A stretch of 13,014 nucleotides of DNA from a bacterium (lineage in GTDB: Bacteria > SZUA-182 > DTGQ01), in the NCBI GenBank assembly GCA_023512255.1, contig JAILZY010000091.1, positions 1-13,014 of the forward strand. The letters run 5' to 3'. A program made the position numbers and the translations under genes. The notes beneath the pieces were generated by a model. It did not search any database. It had not been told where the DNA came from and saw only the letters and a list, made by a program, of their open reading frames with translations. The stretch's first letter is position 1, and the number at the start of each line of letters is the position of its first letter. Shown here piece by piece: positions 1 to 13,014 of this stretch.

Positions 1-454
1 CTATTGTCTTTTACCTCAATACCCTTACCCTGCGGCTTATCTCCTCCTCCTAATTTAAACATGGGGAACATCTGCCCTTGCCAGTTCCTCGGATGTTTTT
101 CCAGTATTCGTAGTGTACTCCCTTGAGTGATTCAGATAGGCCTCTCGATTGTAGATAAGCGGTAGCCGGTCGGTTTGGATCTTCCTTACAAGGCGGGTTC
201 TCTTTTTCAATATTTTGGATGATCTCAGGGAAAAGGCTTAAGGTTTTGGTTCTGGCTCCGCATTCATTCAAGCGGTTACAGTTTATTGCCCAAGGTTTAT
301 TCGCATAAGCCCATGCTTCCCTACTGCCACACTCTGGGCATACTAAAGGGAAAATGCTTGTTCCTTTCTCTTTGGTTTTTTGGGTCCAATACTCACTTTG
401 CCTCAATCGTTCTTTGATACTGGCTATAATATCATTTTGACTTTTTGTTGCCAT
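1..454 (-). pseudogene. Primase-like zinc-ribbon protein, N-terminal part, frameshifted and cut by the window edge
   Basis: The reading frame starts at ATG 454, behind GGAAGGGCAGGTCT, 29 bases after the small HTH gene. Residues 39-65 hold four cysteines (C39, C42, C59, C65) in a CPEC...NCNRLNECGAR ribbon. This resembles the N-terminal zinc domain of phage and plasmid primase/Toprim proteins. A YLQSRGLSE stretch near residues 100-108 is also typical of that group. The open frame ends at 50 with RCSPCLN, which looks out of frame. A -1 shift at the G run (plus-strand 75-77) gives GQMFPMFKLGGGDK and stays open to base 1, so the true protein very likely runs off the left edge. The shift could be a real mutation, a sequencing error in the G run, or recoding; no classic slippery heptamer is seen. 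The expected role is primer synthesis for an element, inferred from the zinc domain and neighbours only. Confidence 0.6.
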
Positions 455-4021: not shown

Positions 4022-4081
4022 TTTTTTGTTTTGCTATTTCAGCCAACTGTTGATTTATAGTTTGGTAGCAAACCCTTTCAT
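4017..4081 (-). pseudogene. Collapsed remnant of a MKGLATK-type coiled-coil gene
   Basis: ATG 4081 overlaps the stop of the upstream gene (ATGA) and opens with MKGFATKL, the conserved N-terminus of the intact coiled-coil proteins (MKGLATKI). After a frame change it reads TINQQLAEIAKQKR then TAG, which resembles their C-terminus (TIMQMLVELSKQKN). The whole repeat region between is gone. It looks like an internally deleted copy. Confidence 0.5.
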
Positions 4082-4467: not shown

Positions 4468-4770
4468 CTACTTAATAAGAAGTGTCAATAAGGTAACTGT
4501 TATACTTATTTGAGCGATCGTAAGACCGACTACCCATTTAATCAAACTTGACCTTACCTGCTCAATTTCTTTGGTTAATTTAAGTTCTACTTCCCGAATT
4601 TCTTTGGTCAGCTTAAGCTCTGTTTCCCGCAGGTCTCCTTTTGTCGCCAATTCTTTATTTTTGGCATCAACGATCTCTTCAATATCCTTCACAATGGTTT
4701 GAGCTTCTTCTTTCGTGTAAGTCTTGGAGAAGATATTGAATAATTCCATTACCTGTGTACTTGTGCTCAT
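4468..4770 (-). CDS. DUF1640-like coiled-coil membrane protein (100 aa)
   Basis: I place the start at ATG 4770, not the upstream in-frame ATG at 4812. MSTSTQVMELFNIF lines up with MSTISQGIELFNIF of the paralogue at 6390-6656, and ATG 4770 overlaps the HTH stop by ATGA. The order of parts is an amphipathic N-terminal helix with a KEEAQTIVKDIEEI segment, ATKGDL, a coiled coil (about 45-75), and a C-terminal membrane helix (WVVGLTIAQISITVTLLTLL, about 78-99). This is the DUF1640 (CCDC90/MCUR1-like) pattern of small bacterial proteins. An 11-residue unit (ELKLTKEIRE/ELKLTKEIEQ) is duplicated; its DNA is a 33-bp tandem repeat at 4564-4629. It is expected in the inner membrane, oligomeric, and co-translated with the HTH protein. 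The exact function of this family in bacteria is not known to me. Confidence 0.7.
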   Translation of the reverse strand: MSTSTQVMELFNIFSKTYTKEEAQTIVKDIEEIVDAKNKELATKGDLRETELKLTKEIREVELKLTKEIEQVRSSLIKWVVGLTIAQISITVTLLTLLIK

Positions 4771-4958
4771 TTTATGGCCGCCTTTGCTGAATCTTTCTGA
4801 GATTCGATCCATTGATTGATCTCATCTCTTTTGAATAACCTTTTCCCTCCTATTTTGTAAGAAGGAATGGCCTTGTTATGAATAAGTTTCCTTATCCATA
4901 TCTCGCTTGAATTCAATAAGTTAGCGACTTCTTTTACGGTTAAAAAATTTTTGTTCAT
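4767..4958 (-). CDS. Excisionase-family HTH protein (63 aa)
   Basis: ATG 4958 is preferred over ATG 5003 because ACGGAGAAACC lies in front and the HTH begins right after it; the longer form would only add MYIYIQTVLNIYGET. Residues 4-52 (FLTVKEVANLLNSSEIWIRK, then AIPSYKIGGKRLFKRDEINQWI) show the excisionase/MerR-like fold. It is very close to the stand-alone HTH at 2846-3043. Its stop overlaps the DUF1640-like gene by ATGA, so the DNA-binding and membrane proteins are made together. The palindrome at 4987-5002 upstream is a likely operator or promoter site. Confidence 0.75.
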   Translation of the reverse strand: MNKNFLTVKEVANLLNSSEIWIRKLIHNKAIPSYKIGGKRLFKRDEINQWIESQKDSAKAAIK

Positions 4959-4986
4959 GGTTTCTCCGTATATGTTCAAAACTGTT

Positions 4987-5002
4987 TGTATATAAATATA
5001 CA
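4987..5002. promoter_or_regulatory. Perfect palindrome TGTATATAAATATACA (operator-like)
   Basis: TGTATAT and ATATACA are perfect arms around AA. It lies 29 bases upstream of the chosen HTH start, in the promoter position, and its TGTATA/TATACA halves recur at 925-949 and 10162-10183. Confidence 0.5.
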
Positions 5003-5201
5003 TAAGCAGAATTTATGAAGTCAAGCGAAAAATTTGCCATTTCTTATCTTACTACACTTTTGCAGAAATTTCTTATCGTCTTGAAATCCTTGAAAGTTAT
5101 ATCTAATAGCAAATCCAGTAAAATCAAGGCCTTGGAGAAAAAGTGCAAAAGCATAGATCTTATTAACCTGCAAATTTTTCTATCTGGTCGAATTATGTAA
5201 T

Positions 5202-5538: not shown

Positions 5539-5570
5539 GCTGGTTCTCTGCTTGTTTTTGGTAGATAAAC

Positions 5571-5740
5571 TAAGTGCTGAGTAAGTGCTGAGTAGGTTAG
5601 TCAGCACTTTAACTTATTGAAAATATTATTTTATATAAGCTCACAAGTGTGTAAGTGCTGAACGACTATACAGCACTTTATCTTTTTGATTTTATTAATC
5701 AAAATCAGCAAAAAATGTCTAAGTGCTGAGAGAGTGCTCA
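5571..5740. repeat. Iteron-like array of TAAGTGCTGA
   Basis: TAAGTGCTGAG is tandemly duplicated (5571-5581, 5582-5592; 11-bp period, one helical turn). TAAGTGCTGA recurs at 5652-5661 and 5720-5729, with inverted copies TCAGCACTT at 5601-5609 and CAGCACTT at 5671-5678. The direct and inverted copies pair as 9-bp and 8-bp hairpins with loops of about ten. A T/A-rich stretch follows. This is the form of a replication or partition site. Confidence 0.55.
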
Positions 5741-5864: not shown

Positions 5865-6365
5865 TTAATTCTTTTGTTTGCTCAATTCTACAAGCATTTG
5901 CATAATAGTATCAAGTCTTTGGTTTACTTGTCCTATCTGAGTGTCAATCTTCTGGTCAAGCTTGTCAATTCGCTGGTTTACTTGCCCTATTTGAGTATTA
6001 ATTTTCTGCTCAAGAGCATCTACTTTTTGATCTACCCTATCAATCTTTTGGTTTACTTGCCCTATCTGAGTGTCAATCTTCTGGTCAAGCTTGTCAATTC
6101 GCTGGTTTAGCTGCCCTATCTGAGTGTCAATCTTTCGATTTATTTGTCCTATCTGAGTATCAATCTTTTGCTCAAGAGCATCTACTTTTTGATCTATTCT
6201 TTGATTTACCTGGTCTATTCGCTGATTCAAATATCGAAAGTCAGCCTCTTGCTTGTTTTGAAGTTCTGCTATATCCCTTTTAATCTCTGCCGTTCGCTCC
6301 TCTATGGCTTCATAGATCACTTCCAGCGATACCTTCTTGATTATCTTGGTAGCCAAACCTTTCAT
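5865..6365 (-). CDS. Variable-repeat coiled-coil protein, copy C (166 aa)
   Basis: Start at ATG 6365 behind AAAGGATAATCGCAAG. The N-terminal 50 residues (MKGLATKIIKKVSLEVIYEA to the RYLNQRID segment) and the last 21 (QVNQRLDTIMQMLVELSKQK then N) are nearly the same as in the copies at 10701-11135 and 12566-13014. The middle is built from 11-residue units like IDTQIGQVNQR and 7-residue units like IDKLDQK and VDALEQK in varying order, predicting one long coiled coil. There is no membrane segment. At the DNA level a 60-bp block (5921-5980) recurs at 6050-6109 with one difference. It follows the DUF1640-like gene by 24 bases in an operon led by an HTH gene. Probably an oligomer or filament that partners the membrane protein; function unknown. 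Confidence 0.7.
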   Translation of the reverse strand: MKGLATKIIKKVSLEVIYEAIEERTAEIKRDIAELQNKQEADFRYLNQRIDQVNQRIDQKVDALEQKIDTQIGQINRKIDTQIGQLNQRIDKLDQKIDTQIGQVNQKIDRVDQKVDALEQKINTQIGQVNQRIDKLDQKIDTQIGQVNQRLDTIMQMLVELSKQKN

Positions 6366-6389
6366 CTTGCGATTATCCTTTTGGCCAGA

Positions 6390-6656
6390 TTACTTAAATA
6401 AAGCAAACATGGTAAGAATTGCCCCTGTTTGAGCTATCAAAAGACCGACCATCCAACCGACTACCCATTTAATCGTACTGGATTTTGCTTGTTCAATCTT
6501 CAACTCGATTTCCTTAATATCGCTTTTAGTCGCTAAATCTTGCTTACGAGCATCAATTATTTCCTCTATATCTTTTATTGCAATTTGAGCTTTTTCTTTT
6601 CCCCATGTCTCAGCAAAGATATTGAATAATTCTATTCCTTGACTAATTGTACTCAT
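6390..6656 (-). CDS. DUF1640-like coiled-coil membrane protein (88 aa)
   Basis: The start ATG 6656 overlaps the stop of the HTH gene (ATGA). The order is MSTISQGIELFNIFAETWGK, KDIEEIIDARKQDLATKSD, a short coiled coil (about 45-60), and a membrane helix (about 62-86, WVVGWMVGLLIAQTGAILTM and following). It is a clear paralogue of the 4468-4770 product, but lacks the duplicated 11-residue unit, so it is shorter. The signature is DUF1640-like. It should be a single-pass membrane protein, produced with the HTH protein upstream and the coiled-coil protein downstream. Confidence 0.7.
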   Translation of the reverse strand: MSTISQGIELFNIFAETWGKEKAQIAIKDIEEIIDARKQDLATKSDIKEIELKIEQAKSSTIKWVVGWMVGLLIAQTGAILTMFALFK

Positions 6657-6844
6657 CTTGTAGCCATCCTTCGCTCTCCAGTATTTACCCTTAAATCCTC
6701 TTCTAGCTCTGCCTTTTTAAAGCGGTAGGCATTACCGACTTTTAAAGCTCTGAGCTTCCCATTTTTTATCAGCCTGAACAGCGTTCTCCGACTAATCTGC
6801 AAATATTCGGTAGCTTGCTCTGCTGTTAGTAATTGTTCTGTCAT
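6653..6844 (-). CDS. Excisionase-family HTH protein (63 aa)
   Basis: ATG 6844 follows AGAGGTGAGACA. Residues 4-52 (LLTAEQATEYLQISRRTLFR then GKLRALKVGNAYRFKKAELEEDL) give a textbook excisionase-type HTH with wing. Its C-terminal half has a degraded relative at 3947-4021. It is the first gene of a three-gene operon and is coupled to the membrane protein by ATGA. Transcription probably starts from the minus-strand promoter at 6888-6917. Confidence 0.8.
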   Translation of the reverse strand: MTEQLLTAEQATEYLQISRRTLFRLIKNGKLRALKVGNAYRFKKAELEEDLRVNTGERRMATR

Positions 6845-6887
6845 TGTCTCACCTCTTTTTTGTCTCGATTAACATTATCTGTCATAG

Positions 6888-6917
6888 ATATTATCAAATT
6901 TATCATTGACAAGTCAA
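6888..6917 (-). promoter_or_regulatory. Promoter of the 6844-5865 operon
   Basis: On the minus strand TTGACT (6917-6912) and TAATAT (6893-6888) are 18 bases apart, with the start codon about 44 bases further. The -35 touches the plus-strand -35 at 6906-6911, giving back-to-back promoters in the palindrome TTGACAAGTCAA (6906-6917). Confidence 0.55.
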
Positions 6918-6934
6918 ACAAATTTCACCATACT
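6906..6934 (+). promoter_or_regulatory. Divergent plus-strand promoter
   Basis: A perfect TTGACA (6906-6911), 17 bases, then CATACT (6929-6934). No protein gene follows on the plus strand, only the structured stretch to about 7060. Confidence 0.45.
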
Positions 6935-6939
6935 TTTCG

Positions 6940-7060
6940 CGCAATACGGATTCCGCGACTCTAGGTAGGATTAGGTACTTCCAGGCAGGAGTGCCGGTCG
7001 AGGTTTCGGCCAAAGGCTCGATGAGTCTAAACTGTTGAATTTCAAATTTTATTGGTTTAG
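6940..7060 (+). ncRNA. Possible plus-strand structured RNA, unclassified
   Basis: This G/C-richer stretch in A/T-rich surroundings follows a plausible promoter. Possible pairings are GACTC/GAGTC (6957-6961, 7023-7027), TCGAG/CTCGA (6998-7002, 7017-7021), with alternatives GCCG/CGGC (6993-6996, 7007-7010) and GCC-aaa-GGC (7009-7017). No clear terminator is seen; a weak AGGT/ACCT hairpin lies near 7078-7091. The rest of the 6845-7148 gap holds nothing recognisable. Confidence 0.3.
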
Positions 7061-7148
7061 TTACTTAAGCAATCTTTAGGTTTTTACCTATTATGTTAAA
7101 ATAATTTAAAAGCCTAGCCAATCCGCTAACCTTCCATGTCTGGACGGC

Positions 7149-7718
7149 TTAGCCCTCTACTTTAATCCACTCCTTGACCAGCCTCTCCGCTGCTGGTGGA
7201 TGACATACCCCGCATACCCTAACACCGTAGATACTTATCCACCACTTGCGCTCTCCACAGGCATAGCAGGGCTCAATCTGCTCAGGCATTAAATCAGAAG
7301 CAGATTCCGCGCTGGTAGGCTCCGTGTCGACAGACTCCGCGCTGGCAGGCTCGATGATCACTATAGGCTCCAGCTCAAACCACCGTTCCCACCGAATTCG
7401 GCCCTCTGTATCTCGTGCATACCTGTACTCCTTACCCCCTTCAATCCGTCTCCACATCGTCCAGCCAGTCAAAGCCTCATCAATGCCATTTAGATATTGC
7501 AGATGACGAGCAATAAGCTCGTCATCATTGTTAGCCTCATTAGGATTTGTTAATAAGCGTAGGGTTTCTATTTTATGCTCTTTTAGAATTTCAATTAATT
7601 TCTGAAACTCTGCCTGATCAACCGGCCCATCAACAATCTGTCGATATCTAACCTTTCCATCCTCTGCCCACAAAACAAAACCCATAGTCTGCAATCGAGT
7701 AATTGTCTCTACTACCAC
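7149..7718 (-). CDS. TubC-like N-terminal plus C-terminal zinc-ribbon protein (189 aa)
   Basis: The start is GTG 7718 with AAAAAGGAGTAATAA in front. Residues about 3-56 (ITRLQTMGFVLWAEDGKVRY, then a helix ending LRLL) resemble the TubC N-terminal docking fold, which also occurs in phage and plasmid proteins. A Glu/Ser/Ala-rich linker (about 118-145) contains a duplicated ExTSAES/ExASAES unit whose DNA repeats as a 22-bp word at 7301-7322 and 7331-7352. C151, C154, C169 and C172 form a zinc ribbon (CYACG...CGVCHPP). Such ribbon proteins often accompany replication genes on elements. It lies downstream of the primase-helicase beyond the repeat arrays. I infer a replication accessory protein. 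Domain calls are by eye. Confidence 0.6.
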   Translation of the reverse strand: MVVETITRLQTMGFVLWAEDGKVRYRQIVDGPVDQAEFQKLIEILKEHKIETLRLLTNPNEANNDDELIARHLQYLNGIDEALTGWTMWRRIEGGKEYRYARDTEGRIRWERWFELEPIVIIEPASAESVDTEPTSAESASDLMPEQIEPCYACGERKWWISIYGVRVCGVCHPPAAERLVKEWIKVEG

Positions 7719-7768
7719 TTATTACTCCTTTTTATACAGGTAATATATGAGTAATAAATAATCACACT

Positions 7769-7849
7769 AGTAACATTAGTAACAGCGGTAACACCGGTAA
7801 CAGCGGTAACACCGGTAACAGCAGTAACAGCGGTAACACCGGTAATATG
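7769..7849. repeat. Nine tandem 9-bp iterons (RGTAACANN)
   Basis: Nine consecutive 9-bp units run without gaps: AGTAACATT, AGTAACAGC, GGTAACACC, GGTAACAGC, GGTAACACC, GGTAACAGC, AGTAACAGC, GGTAACACC and GGTAATATG. They alternate between ACC and AGC endings. They start 51 bases upstream of the GTG at 7718 and are followed by an A/T-rich stretch (about 7850-7905). Confidence 0.85.
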
Positions 7850-8115
7850 GAATATCTATTCTATAATAGATTGATTTTTAATATGTTTTTTGCTGTTCAC
7901 GGAAGGGATGAGTATCAGAAAAGTATCAGAAAACTGTTACCGCTGATCTGTTACCGGTAACAGGTAACAGAGTAACAGGACAGGCAAAAGCTGTTACCGC
8001 TGTTACCCCCTGTTACCGCGTACCGGTAACAGTTTTTAGCGCATTAACATATTGAAAATTAAGGGATATACAAAAACTGTTACCGCTGTTACCGGTGTTA
8101 CCGCTGTTACTCAAT
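7850..8115. other. Probable origin: A/T-rich core and opposing iterons
   Basis: After the A/T-rich core (7850-7905) comes a set of mixed-orientation units: CTGTTACCG (7934-7942), a perfect 16-bp palindrome CTGTTACCGGTAACAG (7948-7963), further GTAACAG words to 7978, CTGTTACC units at 7991-8017 and TACCGGTA at 8021. A final array of four 9-bp CTGTTACCG-type units (8078-8113) faces the 7769 array. It ends three bases before the primase-helicase stop. Opposed iterons around an A/T-rich segment beside a replication gene is the usual form of an iteron-controlled origin; no initiator protein has been identified. Confidence 0.6.
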
Positions 8116-9849
8116 TTATATCCATCCCTCAACTTTTTGAGGTAAAGAATATTCCCCCTGAGAATTTACCCATACCTGGCCTGACCTAACCATTTCATAT
8201 AGCAGCTTCCTAATCGCTCCGCGAGAGCGATTAAGGGATTGAGATATCATAGCTGGTTTTAAATTAGGTGTTAGTTTTAATAACTCAATAATTTCCTGCC
8301 TTTCTTTGCTCAACTGGTACTCCTCTGCTGAACCTATCACCTGCCATAATCCGGCATCAAACTGTAGTGCAAGCTTAATTTCTTCAACATCTCTGCCAGT
8401 GATATTTAACATCGCGTCCTGTTCACCGCGGCCCCGTTCTAGAATGGCTACAGTATCAGCGACACCAGTTAGACCTGTGCTACCACTTACCTGATCCATC
8501 CAATCGTCTGAGCCTGTTTTTCTCAAGTGGTGAACAACAATAATGGCAATATCTCGTTTCTCCGCTAGCTCCTGTAGGCCAATCAAAGCCTCACTATCGC
8601 TCTGATAGACGTTATGCCCTGCTTCTATTGTTCTAACTCTTTGCAAGGTGTCTATAATCACGAGCTTGATATATTTGTTTGCCGTCAAAAACTGATCTAT
8701 ACACGTAATAGCCTCAATCCCCCTGCCTACTCCATCAGTGGCATAGTAGAACTCACCTAACGATTTATTATCTTCTGGTAAAAGCTTTTTTATCCTGTCT
8801 CTCAACCTGCGCTCGTTGTCCTCTAGTGCCAAATAAAGAACCCCTTTAGGCTCACATTTATATTTCCCTAGTGCAATCCCACCTGTTGATATCGCTAGTG
8901 CTATATCTAATACCAGCCAGGATTTCCCGATTTTCGGTTTCCTCGCAAGAATCATTAACCCTTGTGGTAAAAAACCTGGGATTAGCCACTTAATTTCAGG
9001 CATTTCCTGCTTCATTAGAGAATCCCCGCACTTAATGACTGCCTTAACAGCCGTCGGCTTCCAGACAGGCGCTTCTTCAACCAGTTTTAGAAGCTCCTCT
9101 TTGGTATACCTAATACCATCGGATTTTTGAGGATTGCCATCTAACCAGTCAAGGACGTCGCCTTTCTCCTTTAATCCCGGCAAATCTAGGATCTTGATCT
9201 CCTGAGCTATTCCATGTATACTCTCAGCTACGCTCTTCGCGTGTGCCTGTCCTGGCTGATCATTATCAGGCAGAATACACACGCGACGGTCCTTGAGACA
9301 CTGGTTGTACTCAGACAACCACTTTCCGACCCCGCCGGCATTGCATGTAGCCGTTAGCCCTAGTGAGCAGAGCCGGTCTACGTGTTTTTCTCCTTCAGGG
9401 ATGAATATCCACTTATCAGGATCGGCTTTGAGCAGATCAGGAAGACGATACAAAACTCTTTTAACATCTTTTGTCTTCCATATATAGCCACCCTGGCCGT
9501 CGGGCTTTCTTTGCAAAAACCGCTTGCCAGGAAAACGGCAAACCTCATAAAGCAGTTTGCCGTCCTCATCGCAATATAGAAAGATAGCCTCTGGTCGCTG
9601 CTGATCATCAAAGGATAATATCCCCATCTCGCGGCAAAACGTTTTGTAATTCCCTTTAGCTCCACAGGCATGGCAATAATACATGCCTGTTTCAACATTG
9701 ACAGAAAAACTCGGATGAGTATCAACTCCATCTGAGTGATTCTGCCCAAACGGACAATGCCCCTGATATTCAGTATTACTAATTCTTTTTAGCCCTTCTA
9801 CGTAAGGGCTAAAGAATTCGAAATAATCAATACTGCTTGTTATACTCAT
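8116..9849 (-). CDS. Primase-helicase: CHC2-type zinc finger, Toprim and RepA/RadA-like ATPase (577 aa)
   Basis: The start ATG 9849 follows AAGAAGGAGTGGCTAA. A zinc finger comes first (C32, H38, C59, C62). The Toprim region is about 145-215, with E152 in PEGEKHVD and D195/D197 in PDNDQPG as likely metal-binding acids. A RecA-like ATPase follows from about 285: Walker A RKPKIGKS (303-310), Walker B LVIID with D400, and VVHHLRK (438-444). A small winged-helix-like C-terminus (about 515-570) ends in SLP. The order is that of element-encoded primase-helicases (RepA/AAA_25 helicase type), which unwind DNA and lay primers at the fork. All key residues appear intact. It follows the broken Cro-like gene by 15 bases and precedes the iteron region, so it most likely replicates this element. 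Confidence 0.85.
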   Translation of the reverse strand: MSITSSIDYFEFFSPYVEGLKRISNTEYQGHCPFGQNHSDGVDTHPSFSVNVETGMYYCHACGAKGNYKTFCREMGILSFDDQQRPEAIFLYCDEDGKLLYEVCRFPGKRFLQRKPDGQGGYIWKTKDVKRVLYRLPDLLKADPDKWIFIPEGEKHVDRLCSLGLTATCNAGGVGKWLSEYNQCLKDRRVCILPDNDQPGQAHAKSVAESIHGIAQEIKILDLPGLKEKGDVLDWLDGNPQKSDGIRYTKEELLKLVEEAPVWKPTAVKAVIKCGDSLMKQEMPEIKWLIPGFLPQGLMILARKPKIGKSWLVLDIALAISTGGIALGKYKCEPKGVLYLALEDNERRLRDRIKKLLPEDNKSLGEFYYATDGVGRGIEAITCIDQFLTANKYIKLVIIDTLQRVRTIEAGHNVYQSDSEALIGLQELAEKRDIAIIVVHHLRKTGSDDWMDQVSGSTGLTGVADTVAILERGRGEQDAMLNITGRDVEEIKLALQFDAGLWQVIGSAEEYQLSKERQEIIELLKLTPNLKPAMISQSLNRSRGAIRKLLYEMVRSGQVWVNSQGEYSLPQKVEGWI

Positions 9850-9864
9850 TTAGCCACTCCTTCT

Positions 9865-10077
9865 TTAACACTCCTTCTCTCTCTGCCCTGCCTGATCAAT
9901 ATCCACCACCGAACACCCTAATACACTGGCTAACCTATCCTTTTCCTCATTCGTGAGTCTCTCTCGACCGCAAATAAAATTGCTCAACCTTGTCTCTGAT
10001 ATTCTTGCTTGTAGTGCACAAGCTCTTTATGATCCGATACGTTTTAGGATTAAAAGCTTTAAATCAAAGTTTTTCAT
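9865..10077 (-). pseudogene. Cro-like HTH gene interrupted by an in-frame TAA
   Basis: From ATG 10077 (GAAAGGTATAAAT in front) the frame reads MKNFDLKLLILKRIGS, then TAA (10027-10029), then continues in the same frame with RACALQARISETRLSNFICG, RERLTNEEKDRLASVLGC and an acidic end to the stop at 9865. The part after the stop is a typical short phage Cro/XRE HTH, and relatives usually have a Gln after the GS, so a single CAA to TAA change explains it. The full protein would be 70 residues. It could be a nonsense mutation, a sequencing error, or a read-through site. It is the first gene before the primase-helicase (gap 15 bases). Two palindromes at 10162-10183 upstream are candidate operators. 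Confidence 0.7.
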
Positions 10078-10161
10078 ATTTATACCTTTCTTGCCATCTT
10101 GCTGTCTTGCCGTCTTTTTTTTCTTGTATTTTTTATAAAAACTGCTTAAAATAAAAAAGCT

Positions 10162-10183
10162 TCTGTATACAGTCTGTATACAG
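10162..10183. promoter_or_regulatory. Tandem 11-bp palindromic repeat TCTGTATACAG x2
   Basis: TCTGTATACAG is exactly repeated at 10162-10172 and 10173-10183; each holds the perfect palindrome CTGTATACAG. The 11-bp period puts both sites on one face of the helix. It lies about 85 bases upstream of the Cro-like gene, so it is a good candidate operator for the 10077-8116 unit. Confidence 0.55.
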
Positions 10184-10194
10184 ATAGATAGAGG

Positions 10195-10268
10195 GATTGC
10201 GCAATCTTATTGGAAGCAATGGATTACGCAGTCTCTCTTTCCCCTTTGTAATTAACCCATTACTTCCA
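10195..10268. repeat. Palindrome and long imperfect hairpin in a gene-free gap
   Basis: GATTGCGCAATC (10195-10206) is a perfect 12-bp palindrome, and a near copy GATTACGCAGTC (10/12) lies at 10222-10233. TGGAAGCAATGG (10211-10222) pairs with CCATTACTTCCA (10257-10268) with one exception that would be a G-U pair in minus-strand RNA; ATTAC/GTAAT extend it. It may end or process the 10325-10585 transcript. The remainder of 10078-10324 shows nothing else. Confidence 0.4.
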
Positions 10269-10324
10269 TAAGATCAGTCTATTATACCTAATATTAACTT
10301 TCCTATACAATACCATTTCTTCAT

Positions 10325-10585
10325 TTATCTTAGTAATTTTCTTGAAAAAATAACCAAGATCGGACATGAGTCTACGAGTGCTCGTCGGCACTCATGTAGA
10401 TTGGCTAGCTCTCCTAGCTTGTCAGTGGTTAGCCTAGCGGTTATATCATCGGGTAGGACGGTATAGGCATCAATGCTATTTGGCGGGATTGGCTCATCTG
10501 ATGATTGTGGCAGCATGGTTTCTGCCGCGGAGAGGATGAGACTAACAGCCTGGTAAAGCCTAATAGTGCATCTGTAGTGCTGCAT
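10325..10585 (-). CDS. Short protein, paralogue of the 2348-2680 product (86 aa)
   Basis: I choose ATG 10585 (MQHYRCTIRLYQ) because AGAAGGAG lies at the right distance and because it lines up with the start of the paralogue; an in-frame ATG at 10633 would add 16 residues without a ribosome site. Shared points with the 110-residue relative are the N-terminal helix (AVSLIL/AISHIL), an acidic loop with two prolines in the middle, and LTTDKLGELANLHECRRAL near the end. The C-terminus here is shorter and more hydrophobic (PILVIFSRKLL). No family was recognised and no catalytic motif is visible. The ribosome site is displayed in the loop of a 6-bp hairpin (10587-10607). It sits between the recombinase operon and the Cro-like HTH/primase genes, the same relative place as its paralogue. 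Confidence 0.55.
   Translation of the reverse strand: MQHYRCTIRLYQAVSLILSAAETMLPQSSDEPIPPNSIDAYTVLPDDITARLTTDKLGELANLHECRRALVDSCPILVIFSRKLLR
10370..10400. repeat. Hairpin inside the end of the short gene
   Basis: TCTAC-GAGTGC pairs with GCACTC-(AT)-GTAGA around a TCGTCG loop. The core resembles GAGTGTTAGCGGCACTC found at 10672-10688. It overlaps coding sequence, so it may be chance. Confidence 0.3.
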
Positions 10586-10586
10586 A

Positions 10587-10697
10587 GCGCAAAACTCCTT
10601 CTTGCGCGCTATAATAGTAATCAGCCGCGACACACTAGCGCGAGGAGTTGTGTCTCGGCTAGGACTGGTTTGAGTGTTAGCGGCACTCTGCCAGTCC
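10587..10697. ncRNA. Three-hairpin leader of the 10325-10585 gene
   Basis: On the minus strand three hairpins precede the start codon. First, GGACTGG/CCAGTCC enclosing GAGTG/CACTC (10662-10697). Second, an 11-bp stem with one mismatch (10623-10634 with 10649-10660). Third, GCGCAA/TTGCGC (10587-10592, 10602-10607) with the ribosome site in its 9-base loop. The arrangement mirrors 2687-2803 before the paralogous gene, without sequence identity. The outermost hairpin also starts three bases after the coiled-coil stop and may act as that gene's terminator, although no T run follows. Confidence 0.45.
10673..10688. repeat. 16-bp repeat AGTGTTAGCGGCACTC, first copy
   Basis: Exact copy of 12537-12552. 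Here it forms the inner part of a larger hairpin closed by GGACTGG (10662-10668) and CCAGTCC (10691-10697). Confidence 0.6.
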
Positions 10698-10700
10698 GCC

Positions 10701-11135
10701 TTAATTCTTTTGTTTGCTCAATTCTACGAGCATTTGCATAATGGTATCAAGTCTCTGGTTTACTTGTCCTATCTGAGTATTAATTTTCTGCTCAAAAGCA
10801 TCTATTTTTTGATCTACTCTTCCTATCTGAGTGTCGATCTTTTGGTTTACTAGTCCTATTTGAGTGTCAATCTTCTGGTCAAGTTTGTCAATCCGCTGGT
10901 TTACTTGCCCGATTTCCTGCCGTACCGACCCAATTTCGGTATCAATCCGGCCGCCGAGATCATCAATCCGTTTGCCTAGGTTATCAATTCGCTGGTTTAA
11001 ATATCGAAAGTCGGCTTCCTGCTTGTTTTGAAGCTCTGCTATATCCCTTTTAATCTCTGCCGTTCGATCCTCTATGGCTTCATAGATCACTTCCAGCGAT
11101 ACCTTCTTGATTATCTTGGTAGCCAAACCTTTCAT
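10701..11135 (-). CDS. Variable-repeat coiled-coil protein, copy D (144 aa)
   Basis: Start at ATG 11135, two bases after the stop of the HTH gene. The first 51 residues differ from copy C only at one position (EDRTAE for EERTAE), and the last 20 are identical. The middle is different: NLGKRIDDLGGRIDTEIGSV and RQEIGQVNQRIDKLDQK, then IDTQIG units. It is 22 residues shorter than copy C. It is a predicted continuous coiled coil without membrane segment or signal peptide. It shares the transcript with the recombinase and the HTH protein and, unlike copy C, has no DUF1640-like gene before it. The role is unknown; see findings for the constant-variable-constant pattern. Confidence 0.7.
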   Translation of the reverse strand: MKGLATKIIKKVSLEVIYEAIEDRTAEIKRDIAELQNKQEADFRYLNQRIDNLGKRIDDLGGRIDTEIGSVRQEIGQVNQRIDKLDQKIDTQIGLVNQKIDTQIGRVDQKIDAFEQKINTQIGQVNQRLDTIMQMLVELSKQKN

Positions 11136-11137
11136 TT

Positions 11138-11359
11138 CTATTCGCCTTTCAGATGCTCTTCCTGCCCGACTAAATCACCCCTACCCTCTCCGGCCGTTCG
11201 TCTCTCTTTGACGAACATTTCAAAGTCTTCCCGCGAGATCCTGTAGCGATTACCAAATTTGGCCGCGGGCAGCTTCCCCATCCGGATATACTCATATATC
11301 GTATTAATATCTATTCTAATAATCTGAGCAATCTCTTGCGGAGTATAAAACTCTTGCAT
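11138..11359 (-). CDS. Excisionase-family HTH protein (73 aa) next to the recombinase
   Basis: ATG 11359 follows AGGAGAGACGGTC, 11 bases after the recombinase stop. Residues 3-52 (FYTPQEIAQIIRIDINTIYE then GKLPAAKFGNRYRISREDFEMF) are an excisionase/MerR-type HTH; the tail (about 53-73, RRTAGEGRGDLVGQEEHLKG) is polar and flexible. Adjacency to the tyrosine recombinase makes it the best candidate here for a true directionality factor, which would bind near the attachment site. The same fold also leads two other coiled-coil operons in this window that have no recombinase. Confidence 0.8.
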   Translation of the reverse strand: MQEFYTPQEIAQIIRIDINTIYEYIRMGKLPAAKFGNRYRISREDFEMFVKERRTAGEGRGDLVGQEEHLKGE

Positions 11360-11370
11360 GACCGTCTCTC

Positions 11371-12327
11371 CTATAGATTGATTGGGATTGCCCGTGTGTA
11401 GCGAGCTTCCCGCTGGTGGATGATATGGGAATACCTGGCCGCGGTGGCAATATTGCTATGCCTCAGTGTCTCTTGTACTACCCGAACATCCCTGGTAGCC
11501 TGATAGAGCAGCGCTCCGCATGTATGCCGCAGAGCATGGCAGGAAAGCCTAAATCGTTTCAGATCCGCTTTTTCTAGGTAGAAGTCGACAACTGCCCGCA
11601 CTCCATCCCGCGTTATTCGCTTGCCGCCTGCTCGATTGCCTGTAGCCGTAAATAACGGTGTACCTTCCTCATCACTAACTACTGGCCCTCTGGCCTCAAG
11701 GTATGCCACAATGGCCCTGGTAGTATCCTCACGCGGGTAAATATAGCCATCACGGCCCTTGCCATGAATTAGCAGCCTTACCCCATCCCTATTTTCTATG
11801 TTTTCCACACTAGCGCGGGTAATTTCAACCACACGCAGGCCCTCAAGCATCATTAGGGCAATGATAGCCCTATCGCGCAAGTGTTTTATTTTGCCATCGC
11901 TTGGTATAGCTCTGAGCAAAAGTGCGGCCTCACCCGCGCTCAGATGCCTGATAGAATCGGTGGCTTCCCTCTCACGCGGAGCTCTGACTGCAGCCGCGGG
12001 ATTGTCTATAATTAGCCCGCGATCTACCGCTGCCTGGTAGAAGCGTCTGATAGTGGTGAGTTTTAGAGCTATAGTAGCGTGTTTTAGCCCTAAGCCCACC
12101 AGATACTGCCGGTAGGCTTTAACGTCTTGTTGTGTAGCTCCAGCAGGATCAATGCTCGTCTGTCGACACCAGTCAACCCACTGCTTGACGTGAGCTCTGT
12201 ATGTTCTCACAGTGTCTGGCCTAGCATCGCCATTGGCAATGTCAAGTCTTAAGAAATCTGCAAACACAGTTAGCAGATTTGCTGCTGCTATTGGATTGTT
12301 TTTTTCAGTCTTGGCTAGATAATTCAT
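11371..12327 (-). CDS. Tyrosine recombinase / integrase (318 aa)
   Basis: ATG 12327 follows GAGGGTAAAAGCC. An N-terminal SAM-like (core-binding) domain covers about 15-105 (TVRTYRAHVKQWVDWCRQ). The catalytic domain has all expected residues: R165 (EGLRVVEI), K190 (HGKGRDG), H264 and R267 (HALRH), H290 (LRHSN) and the nucleophile Y299 (ARYSHI). The length is that of XerC/D-like and phage-type integrases without a long arm-binding domain. It catalyses site-specific DNA strand exchange, by integration, excision or dimer resolution. It is first in the operon with the HTH protein and coiled coil D and is driven by a near-consensus promoter (12364-12392). Attachment sites were not located, so element ends remain undefined. 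Confidence 0.9.
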   Translation of the reverse strand: MNYLAKTEKNNPIAAANLLTVFADFLRLDIANGDARPDTVRTYRAHVKQWVDWCRQTSIDPAGATQQDVKAYRQYLVGLGLKHATIALKLTTIRRFYQAAVDRGLIIDNPAAAVRAPREREATDSIRHLSAGEAALLLRAIPSDGKIKHLRDRAIIALMMLEGLRVVEITRASVENIENRDGVRLLIHGKGRDGYIYPREDTTRAIVAYLEARGPVVSDEEGTPLFTATGNRAGGKRITRDGVRAVVDFYLEKADLKRFRLSCHALRHTCGALLYQATRDVRVVQETLRHSNIATAARYSHIIHQREARYTRAIPINL

Positions 12328-12363
12328 GGCTTTTACCCTCTTGTTTAACCTTAACTATGGGTA

Positions 12364-12392
12364 ATAATACCATTATTAGGTTAGCCTGTCAA
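12364..12392 (-). promoter_or_regulatory. Near-consensus promoter of the recombinase operon
   Basis: On the minus strand TTGACA (12392-12387), exactly 17 bases, then TATTAT (12369-12364). Transcription would start about 30 bases before ATG 12327. ATGGGTAATAATACCAT around 12357-12373 is partly palindromic over the -10, a possible operator. Confidence 0.75.
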
Positions 12393-12565
12393 TAATTATT
12401 TTAAATATTCTAATCCTGATAATTTATCTTATAGGGATTAGATTAGAGAAGGAGACATCTAGGTAGGGTAGGTATAATTGGATAGAAATAAGCCTGGTCA
12501 ATGGCCCATATCATTGATCTGGCTAGAGCTGACTTAAGTGTTAGCGGCACTCAAACCGGCCCGAT
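12393..12565. other. Non-coding gap upstream of the recombinase
   Basis: CTAATCC/GGATTAG (12410-12416, 12435-12441) is a 7-bp inverted repeat. TCTAGGTAGG at 12458-12467 is shared with 6960-6969. AGTGTTAGCGGCACTC (12537-12552) repeats exactly the word at 10673-10688. Recombination sites may lie here but cannot be defined. Confidence 0.35.
12537..12552. repeat. 16-bp repeat AGTGTTAGCGGCACTC, second copy
   Basis: Exact copy of 10673-10688. Both copies lie 12-13 bases beyond the stop codon of a coiled-coil gene, and together they bracket the coiled coil D, HTH and recombinase genes as direct repeats 1.86 kb apart. AGTG/CACT form a small stem. Confidence 0.6.
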
Positions 12566-13014
12566 CTAATTCTTTTGTTTGCTCAATTCTACAAGCATTT
12601 GCATAATGGTATCAAGTCTTTGGTTCACTTGTCCTATCTGAGTGTCAATCTTTTGGTTTACTTGCCCTATCTGAGTATTAATTTTCTGCTCAAGAGCATC
12701 TACTTTTTGATCTACCCTATCAAGTCTTTGGTTTACTTGTCCTATCTGAGTATCAATCTTTTGATTTACTAGTCCTATTTGAGTATTAATTTTCTGCTCA
12801 AGAGCATCTACTTTTTGATCTACCCTCTGGTTTATCTGATCTATTCTCTGATTTATCTGACTGATTTCTTGCCTGACTTGTCCAATTTGAGTATCAACCT
12901 GCCTGCCTAAGTCATTAATTCGCTGATTCAAATATCTAAAGTCGGCTTCCTGCTTGTTTTGAAGCTCTGCTATATCCCTTTTAATCTCTGCCGTTCGATC
13001 CTCTATGGCTTCAT
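12566..13014 (-). CDS. Variable-repeat coiled-coil protein, copy E (partial, start beyond the window)
   Basis: The frame stays open to the right edge and reads EAIEDRTAEIKRDIAELQNK then QEADFRYLNQRI, the conserved N-terminal part of copies C and D, so the true start lies roughly 55 bases outside the window rather than at the internal ATG 12931. The middle is again a different series of 7- and 11-residue units (NDLGRQVDTQIGQVRQEISQ; QKVDALEQKINTQIG occurs twice); the last 21 residues equal copy C. About 149 residues are visible. It is a predicted long coiled coil. It lies upstream of the recombinase operon; its own HTH or membrane partner, if any, is outside. Confidence 0.7.
   Translation of the reverse strand, partial: EAIEDRTAEIKRDIAELQNKQEADFRYLNQRINDLGRQVDTQIGQVRQEISQINQRIDQINQRVDQKVDALEQKINTQIGLVNQKIDTQIGQVNQRLDRVDQKVDALEQKINTQIGQVNQKIDTQIGQVNQRLDTIMQMLVELSKQKN

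Follow-up and report, generated by a model that had tools for sequence, protein, structure and literature searches.

The window, by which we mean the whole 13,014-nucleotide stretch of DNA analysed, contains three related genes on the minus strand, each comprised of a constant block at either end and a repetitive middle, termed here the rod. Copy A (5865..6365) is a complete ORF of 166 aa, with an N-terminal constant block at 6225-6365, a rod of 102 codons at 5919-6224, and a C-terminal constant block at 5865-5918. Copy B (10701..11135) is also a complete ORF, of 144 aa, with its N block at 10995-11135, a rod of 80 codons at 10755-10994, and its C block at 10701-10754. Copy C (12566..13012) is visible over 148 aa and is cut at its 5′ end inside the N constant block; it retains a partial N block (12926-13012), a rod of 102 codons (12620-12925), and the C block (12566-12619). 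The first 18 codons of this copy are missing, as the contig stops at 13014.

The DNA identity at the N end was 95.0% between A and B over 141 nt and, over the 87 nt present in copy C, 93.1% for A/C and 96.6% for B/C. At the C end, each pair was 96.3% identical over 54 nt. The near-identical ends claimed in the original prediction were therefore found, at 93-97% DNA identity; the extent given there, the first ~50 codons, held for A and B, while copy C was comparable over 87 nt only. The differences between the ends of A and B were mainly silent (6 silent and 1 replacement codon per 48). The remnant of a fourth copy is present on the minus strand at 4055..4081 and reads MKGFATKL followed by a stop; this stretch, together with the gene before it, has 81% identity to the C88 locus.

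The middles of A, B and C gave 66-150 gap columns per pairwise global alignment, and the aligned bases were 77-91% identical. The middles of A and C have a 70-nt block in common at differing offsets (A181/C202), and a second common block of 55 nt (A186/C99). Within the rod of copy A, a near-identical 62-nt block is found at 6048..6109 and again, 129 nt away, at 5919..5980; the rod of copy C contains a near-identical 53-nt block at 12774..12826 and, 108 nt away, at 12666..12718 (all on the minus strand). As had been proposed, the three middles differ both in how many 7- and 11-residue units they contain and in how these are arranged. The repetition of a 60-bp block at a distance of 129 bp, with a single mismatch, had been assigned to copy C; it exists, but in the copy at 5865-6365.

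Distribution and gene context

The host genome carries about 13 members of the rod family on 11 contigs. Several lie at contig ends, as expected of repeats, which break assemblies. The single congener has about 10 copies, and none were found in the seven other genomes of this small phylum (0/7). Among 84,980 species genomes scanned, clear relatives outside the phylum were confined to Aquificota, where 30 of 136 genomes carry the family with one to seven matches each, and the architecture is alike in the two phyla. The search of IMG/VR returned one distant contig with an almost rodless member, in which the C block follows nearly straight after the N block; judged from this member, a rod may not be required, or the gene may have decayed.

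The rod family has no curated match in Pfam or NCBIfam. The matches of the rods in Pfam, NCBIfam and PHROGs (among them torovirus spike, apolipoprotein, MtrG and baculovirus PEP) reflected coiled-coil character in general, scored under the curated cut-offs, and were not considered homology. Marginal exceptions above the cutoff, such as Baculo_PEP_C in copy A (38.1 vs 38) and MtrG and HSCB_C in copy C (both just above), were likewise not taken as homology. Profile searches of the PDB with the rods gave generic coiled-coil matches only.

An operon-like run ending in copy A is headed by an HTH_17/excisionase-type gene (6653..6844, minus strand). Between this gene and copy A lies a gene (6390..6656, minus strand) for an 88-aa CCDC90/DUF1640-like coiled-coil protein with a C-terminal membrane helix, which itself scores below the Pfam cutoff. 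Another HTH_17/excisionase-type gene (11138..11359, minus strand) is directly upstream of copy B, and a gene for a XerC/D-like tyrosine recombinase (11371..12327, minus strand) is located between copies C and B. An HTH_17 gene lies directly upstream of B, as also of C88 and L035; at A, one other gene intervenes. One rod-family member in the congener likewise follows an HTH_17 gene. No HTH pairing was seen by eye in the Aquificota loci, and the pairing is therefore not a property of the rod family.

These neighbours bear on whether the copies spread as cargo with an integrase/primase element and its HTH genes, with the rod protein serving the element. The window does hold the recombinase, a CHC2 primase/AAA helicase gene, and the HTH_17 genes in the positions described above. 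However, in both phyla the genes around most genomic copies are ordinary chromosomal ones, no matches were found in 50,697 phage records, the IMG/VR search gave the one distant contig alone, and the plasmid search gave only Borrelia Bdr repeats. Spread as mobile-element cargo is thus considered unlikely.

At its right end, the window stops partway through repeat copy C, and window positions 1-74 overlap the end of contig C122 (L117) at 100%, which probably represents an assembly-graph join. As the first 74 bases are the end of C122, the window need not be a free plasmid. A circular contig was rejected, since the sequence past 13014 must continue the N block and position 1 does not match. The break inside copy C, the overlap with C122, and the presence of several other copies at contig ends would also be seen if short-read assembly had produced chimeric repeat middles in A, B and C. 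This is very improbable, as copies A and B sit well within the contig, and two independent genomes have the same unit-sized changes at several loci, with the frames open.

Several further features of the window and the genus were noted. A nine-base GGTAACA-type iteron array (window 7757-7850 and 7930-8110, with copies in inverted orientation at a distance of about 270 bp) adjoins the CHC2 primase/AAA helicase gene (8116-9849) and looks like a mobile-element replication origin. The intergenic region at window 5562-5740 contains repeated AAGTGCTGA motifs at short spacing. The hairpin-like sequence AGTGCCGCTAACACT downstream of B and C was considered as a mark of a dispersed cassette and dropped, as only 3 genome sites were found (≤1 mismatch). 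The genus has a second expanded family, in which an HTH_17 gene is followed, with overlapping stop and start, by a gene for a CCDC90/DUF1640-like protein in which variable coiled-coil repeats of 11 residues lie between a constant N end and a constant C-terminal membrane helix. This family is present at window 4468-5003 and 6390-6844 and at the G001 loci L111, L116, L122, L128 and L129, with 28 matching stretches in G001 and 9 in G000, and carries the DUF1640 ATK-D motif (motif from PMC4786415).

Periodicity, predicted fold and cell location

Starting where the N block ends, the rods can be divided into heptads and hendecads whose core positions are hydrophobic. The tiling covered a mean of 89% of the rod length vs 43% in shuffled rods, and the unit pattern is therefore not due to chance. 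AlphaFold2 modelling of copy B (single chain, 18 family members) predicted one continuous helix across residues 2-143, with a mean pLDDT of 94; the pTM was low (0.45), as expected of a lone long helix. By their heptad/hendecad periodicity and predicted helical fold, the rods classify as coiled coils, for which periodicities of 7/2, 11/3 and 18/5 residues per turn have been described (PMC4786415).

Export and anchoring were judged by a hydropathy scan only. No membrane helix or signal peptide was evident in 35 members, with a maximum 19-residue hydropathy (KD19) of 0.83 vs 1.97-2.31 in membrane-anchored controls. The rod proteins are, on this measure, most likely soluble and cytosolic.

Orthologous loci and probable exchange between copies

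Three orthologous groups in Aquificota were defined by their flanking genes. In the alignments of five orthologous pairs, rod length changes by exactly 7, 11 or 18 residues: the eight rod gaps were of 7, 7, 11, 7, 7, 7, 18 and 7 codons, and the ends were without any codon gain or loss. Two genes at the ExeA-pilin locus have aligned rods that are 94% identical, plus two seven-residue gaps. At the DsrE-porin locus, the proteins of G013 and G011 are identical over a 47-residue N block and a 17-residue C block. The N block has no gaps and a pN of 0.000 vs a pS of 0.71, and the rods differ by one 21-bp loss and one 21-bp gain. At the same locus (L065, L070), one rod gene is present in G011 and G014, and a tandem pair in G013 and G009.

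The flanking genes of G071 and G072 are 96.9-98.9% identical, yet the rods differ in length at two loci. The proteins of 121 vs 146 aa are separated by gaps of 21 and 54 bp, and those of 107 vs 114 aa by one 21-bp gap, in each case in frame and in the rod only. A third pair (197 vs 186 aa), beside the same neighbouring gene, is 11 residues apart. In these two genomes (L134, L135, L136), rod genes alternate with convergently oriented genes, whose products are apparently secreted and have a common EVN.P.TFQPNT.AKASEVN.NFN motif.

Across the five pairs, pN in the rod was 0.00-0.09 vs a pS of 0.19-0.85, and pN was well below pS in the ends too. No excess of amino-acid change in the variable rod was found in these pairs. 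Judged from the substitutions, the ends, of about 47 residues N-terminally and 17-19 C-terminally, are under purifying selection. The constant ends and length-variable middle described for A, B and C were thus found again at orthologous loci of related genomes. An identical repeat order at each locus and divergence spread evenly over the gene were both checked between species, and neither result refuted this reading. The compared genomes are apparently mostly metagenome-assembled, and assemblers may collapse or misjoin near-identical repeats, so that some of the length differences, and the mosaic gene described below, could be artefacts.

The G072 gene for the 146-aa protein is a mosaic. Its N block is nearest to its ortholog (4 vs 11 mismatches), while the first 84 nt of its rod are identical to the neighbouring paralog (0 vs 5 mismatches; Fisher p 0.008, in a test made post hoc on one gene). 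The neighbouring paralog matches windows 0-63 and 147-210 without mismatch, the ortholog matches windows 42-126 with 0-1 mismatches, and a third locus matches windows 252-336 with 0-3 mismatches per 63 nt. The pattern fits gene conversion between linked copies, although an assembler chimera could look alike, and gene conversion is supported rather than proven. The rod-gene copies probably exchange sequence, and the recombination between copies that had been suggested from the near-identical ends gains support from this gene.

The rod protein had also been called surface-variable, which would place it in an antigen-like contingency family whose rod length and sequence vary to alter display outside the cell. 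Multiple copies, variable repeat number, and mosaic exchange between copies would be consistent with this, as would the position of several Aquificota loci, by eye, next to genes for porin, pilin-like and other apparently secreted proteins. However, neither a signal peptide nor a membrane anchor was evident in the 35 members scanned, and a rod pN far below pS gives no sign of diversifying selection. Furthermore, the hosts are not known to meet an immune system. The surface designation was therefore abandoned, and a role in display is regarded as highly improbable.

Comparison with known systems

The original prediction knew of no described system with this protein. This stands for the protein family, which is unnamed in the libraries searched, but not for its design, which is shared by RepMP1/DUF16 (PMC3472980) and Borrelia Bdr (PMC3303823). 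RepMP1/DUF16 genes of Mycoplasma pneumoniae occur in up to 20 copies per genome, and their proteins have a common proximal region and a distal DUF16 coiled coil of tandem heptads (PMC3472980). Their 21-nt repeats vary in number between strains, recombination among the copies is documented, and slipped-strand mispairing together with unequal crossover has been held responsible for the variation of DUF16 (PMC3472980). The rod family resembles this system in its many copies and its coiled coil of variable repeat number, which supports a similar way of working rather than membership. Homology to DUF16/RepMP1 (PF01519) was not found by Pfam (21.1 bits for copy A vs a cutoff of 40), and the rod family differs in that both ends are constant and that 11- and 18-residue units are used besides those of 7.

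The Borrelia bdr genes are also multi-copy, with coiled-coil repeats whose number differs between orthologs; the bdrT orthologs of two strains, otherwise 99.4% identical, have about nine and about six repeats, respectively (PMC3303823). The tblastn match between the rod family and Bdr spans the repeats. However, the Bdr proteins contain KID repeats and are encoded on plasmids, whereas the rod genes are mostly in a chromosomal context. The KID repeat (PF02524) was found in Bdr; for A, B and C, it did not appear among the best 25 families listed, which cover part of the matches. Bdr are inner-membrane proteins (PMC4370689) with a C-terminal membrane helix (KD19 of 2.18), which the rod family lacks (maximum 0.83). 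No significant homology of the Bdr N terminus to the constant N block was detected, the best local match being 18.5 bits with 31% identity over 39 aa of coiled coil.

A coiled-coil stalk is also common to the rod family and the CCDC90-like/DUF1640 proteins (PF07798), to which 8 of 18 rod-family members match at E≤0.001. The best Aquificota rod member scored 33.2 bits, just under the gathering cutoff of 33.5. The C-terminal membrane anchor of these proteins is absent from the rod family, which has no hydrophobic segment, and the DUF1640 beta-layer motif [aliphatic]-A-T-K-[polar]-[DE] (PMC4786415) is missing, by eye. The design is thus already known; what is new is the protein family, the presence of a constant block at either end, and the combination of 7-, 11- and 18-residue steps.

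Discussion

We consider it probable that these genes encode coiled-coil rods located in the cytosol, in which selection maintains the two ends while the spacer between them tolerates changes in length, slipping and recombining in steps compatible with a coiled coil. From the unit-sized changes and the mosaics, the length steps would arise by strand slippage and by unequal recombination or gene conversion between units of 21, 33 and 54 bp. Selection may then pass mainly whole-helical-turn steps (7/2, 11/3, 18/5), which would leave the hydrophobic core intact and the two ends in the same angular phase. The architecture suggests a protein that may act as an oligomeric spacer or cross-linker, with ends that would bind partners and a rod length that would be only loosely constrained.

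It is also possible, though we think it not likely, that the rods reflect neutral repeat dynamics only, in which a coding VNTR slips, its length is unselected, and there is no function beyond keeping the coiled coil. The step sizes equal the repeat units, and the low rod pN fits plain structural constraint. Slippage between 7- and 11-residue units alone would yield the observed step sizes without selection on phase (n = 8 gaps), and in M. pneumoniae DUF16 the variation has been attributed to slippage and unequal crossover (PMC3472980). However, neutral dynamics leave the many retained copies with conserved ends unexplained. The neutral account overlaps strongly with that of a length-tolerant spacer between selected ends, and the sole difference is whether length matters.

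The more far-reaching idea is that the rod genes act across the genome as molecular rulers that can stand in for one another: the same two docking ends are kept, and recombination redistributes rod lengths among loci in whole-helical-turn steps. We regard this idea as doubtful. If true, the cell would set spacing without altering the binding ends or the angular phase.

The rod proteins add an apparently unrelated family, present in two bacterial phyla, to the small group of multi-copy coiled coils with fixed ends and slipping rods. As orthologous loci already differ in rod length at 97-99% flank identity, they provide a clean natural series for testing whether the length of the rod has consequences and whether steps that keep the helix phase are the only ones retained.
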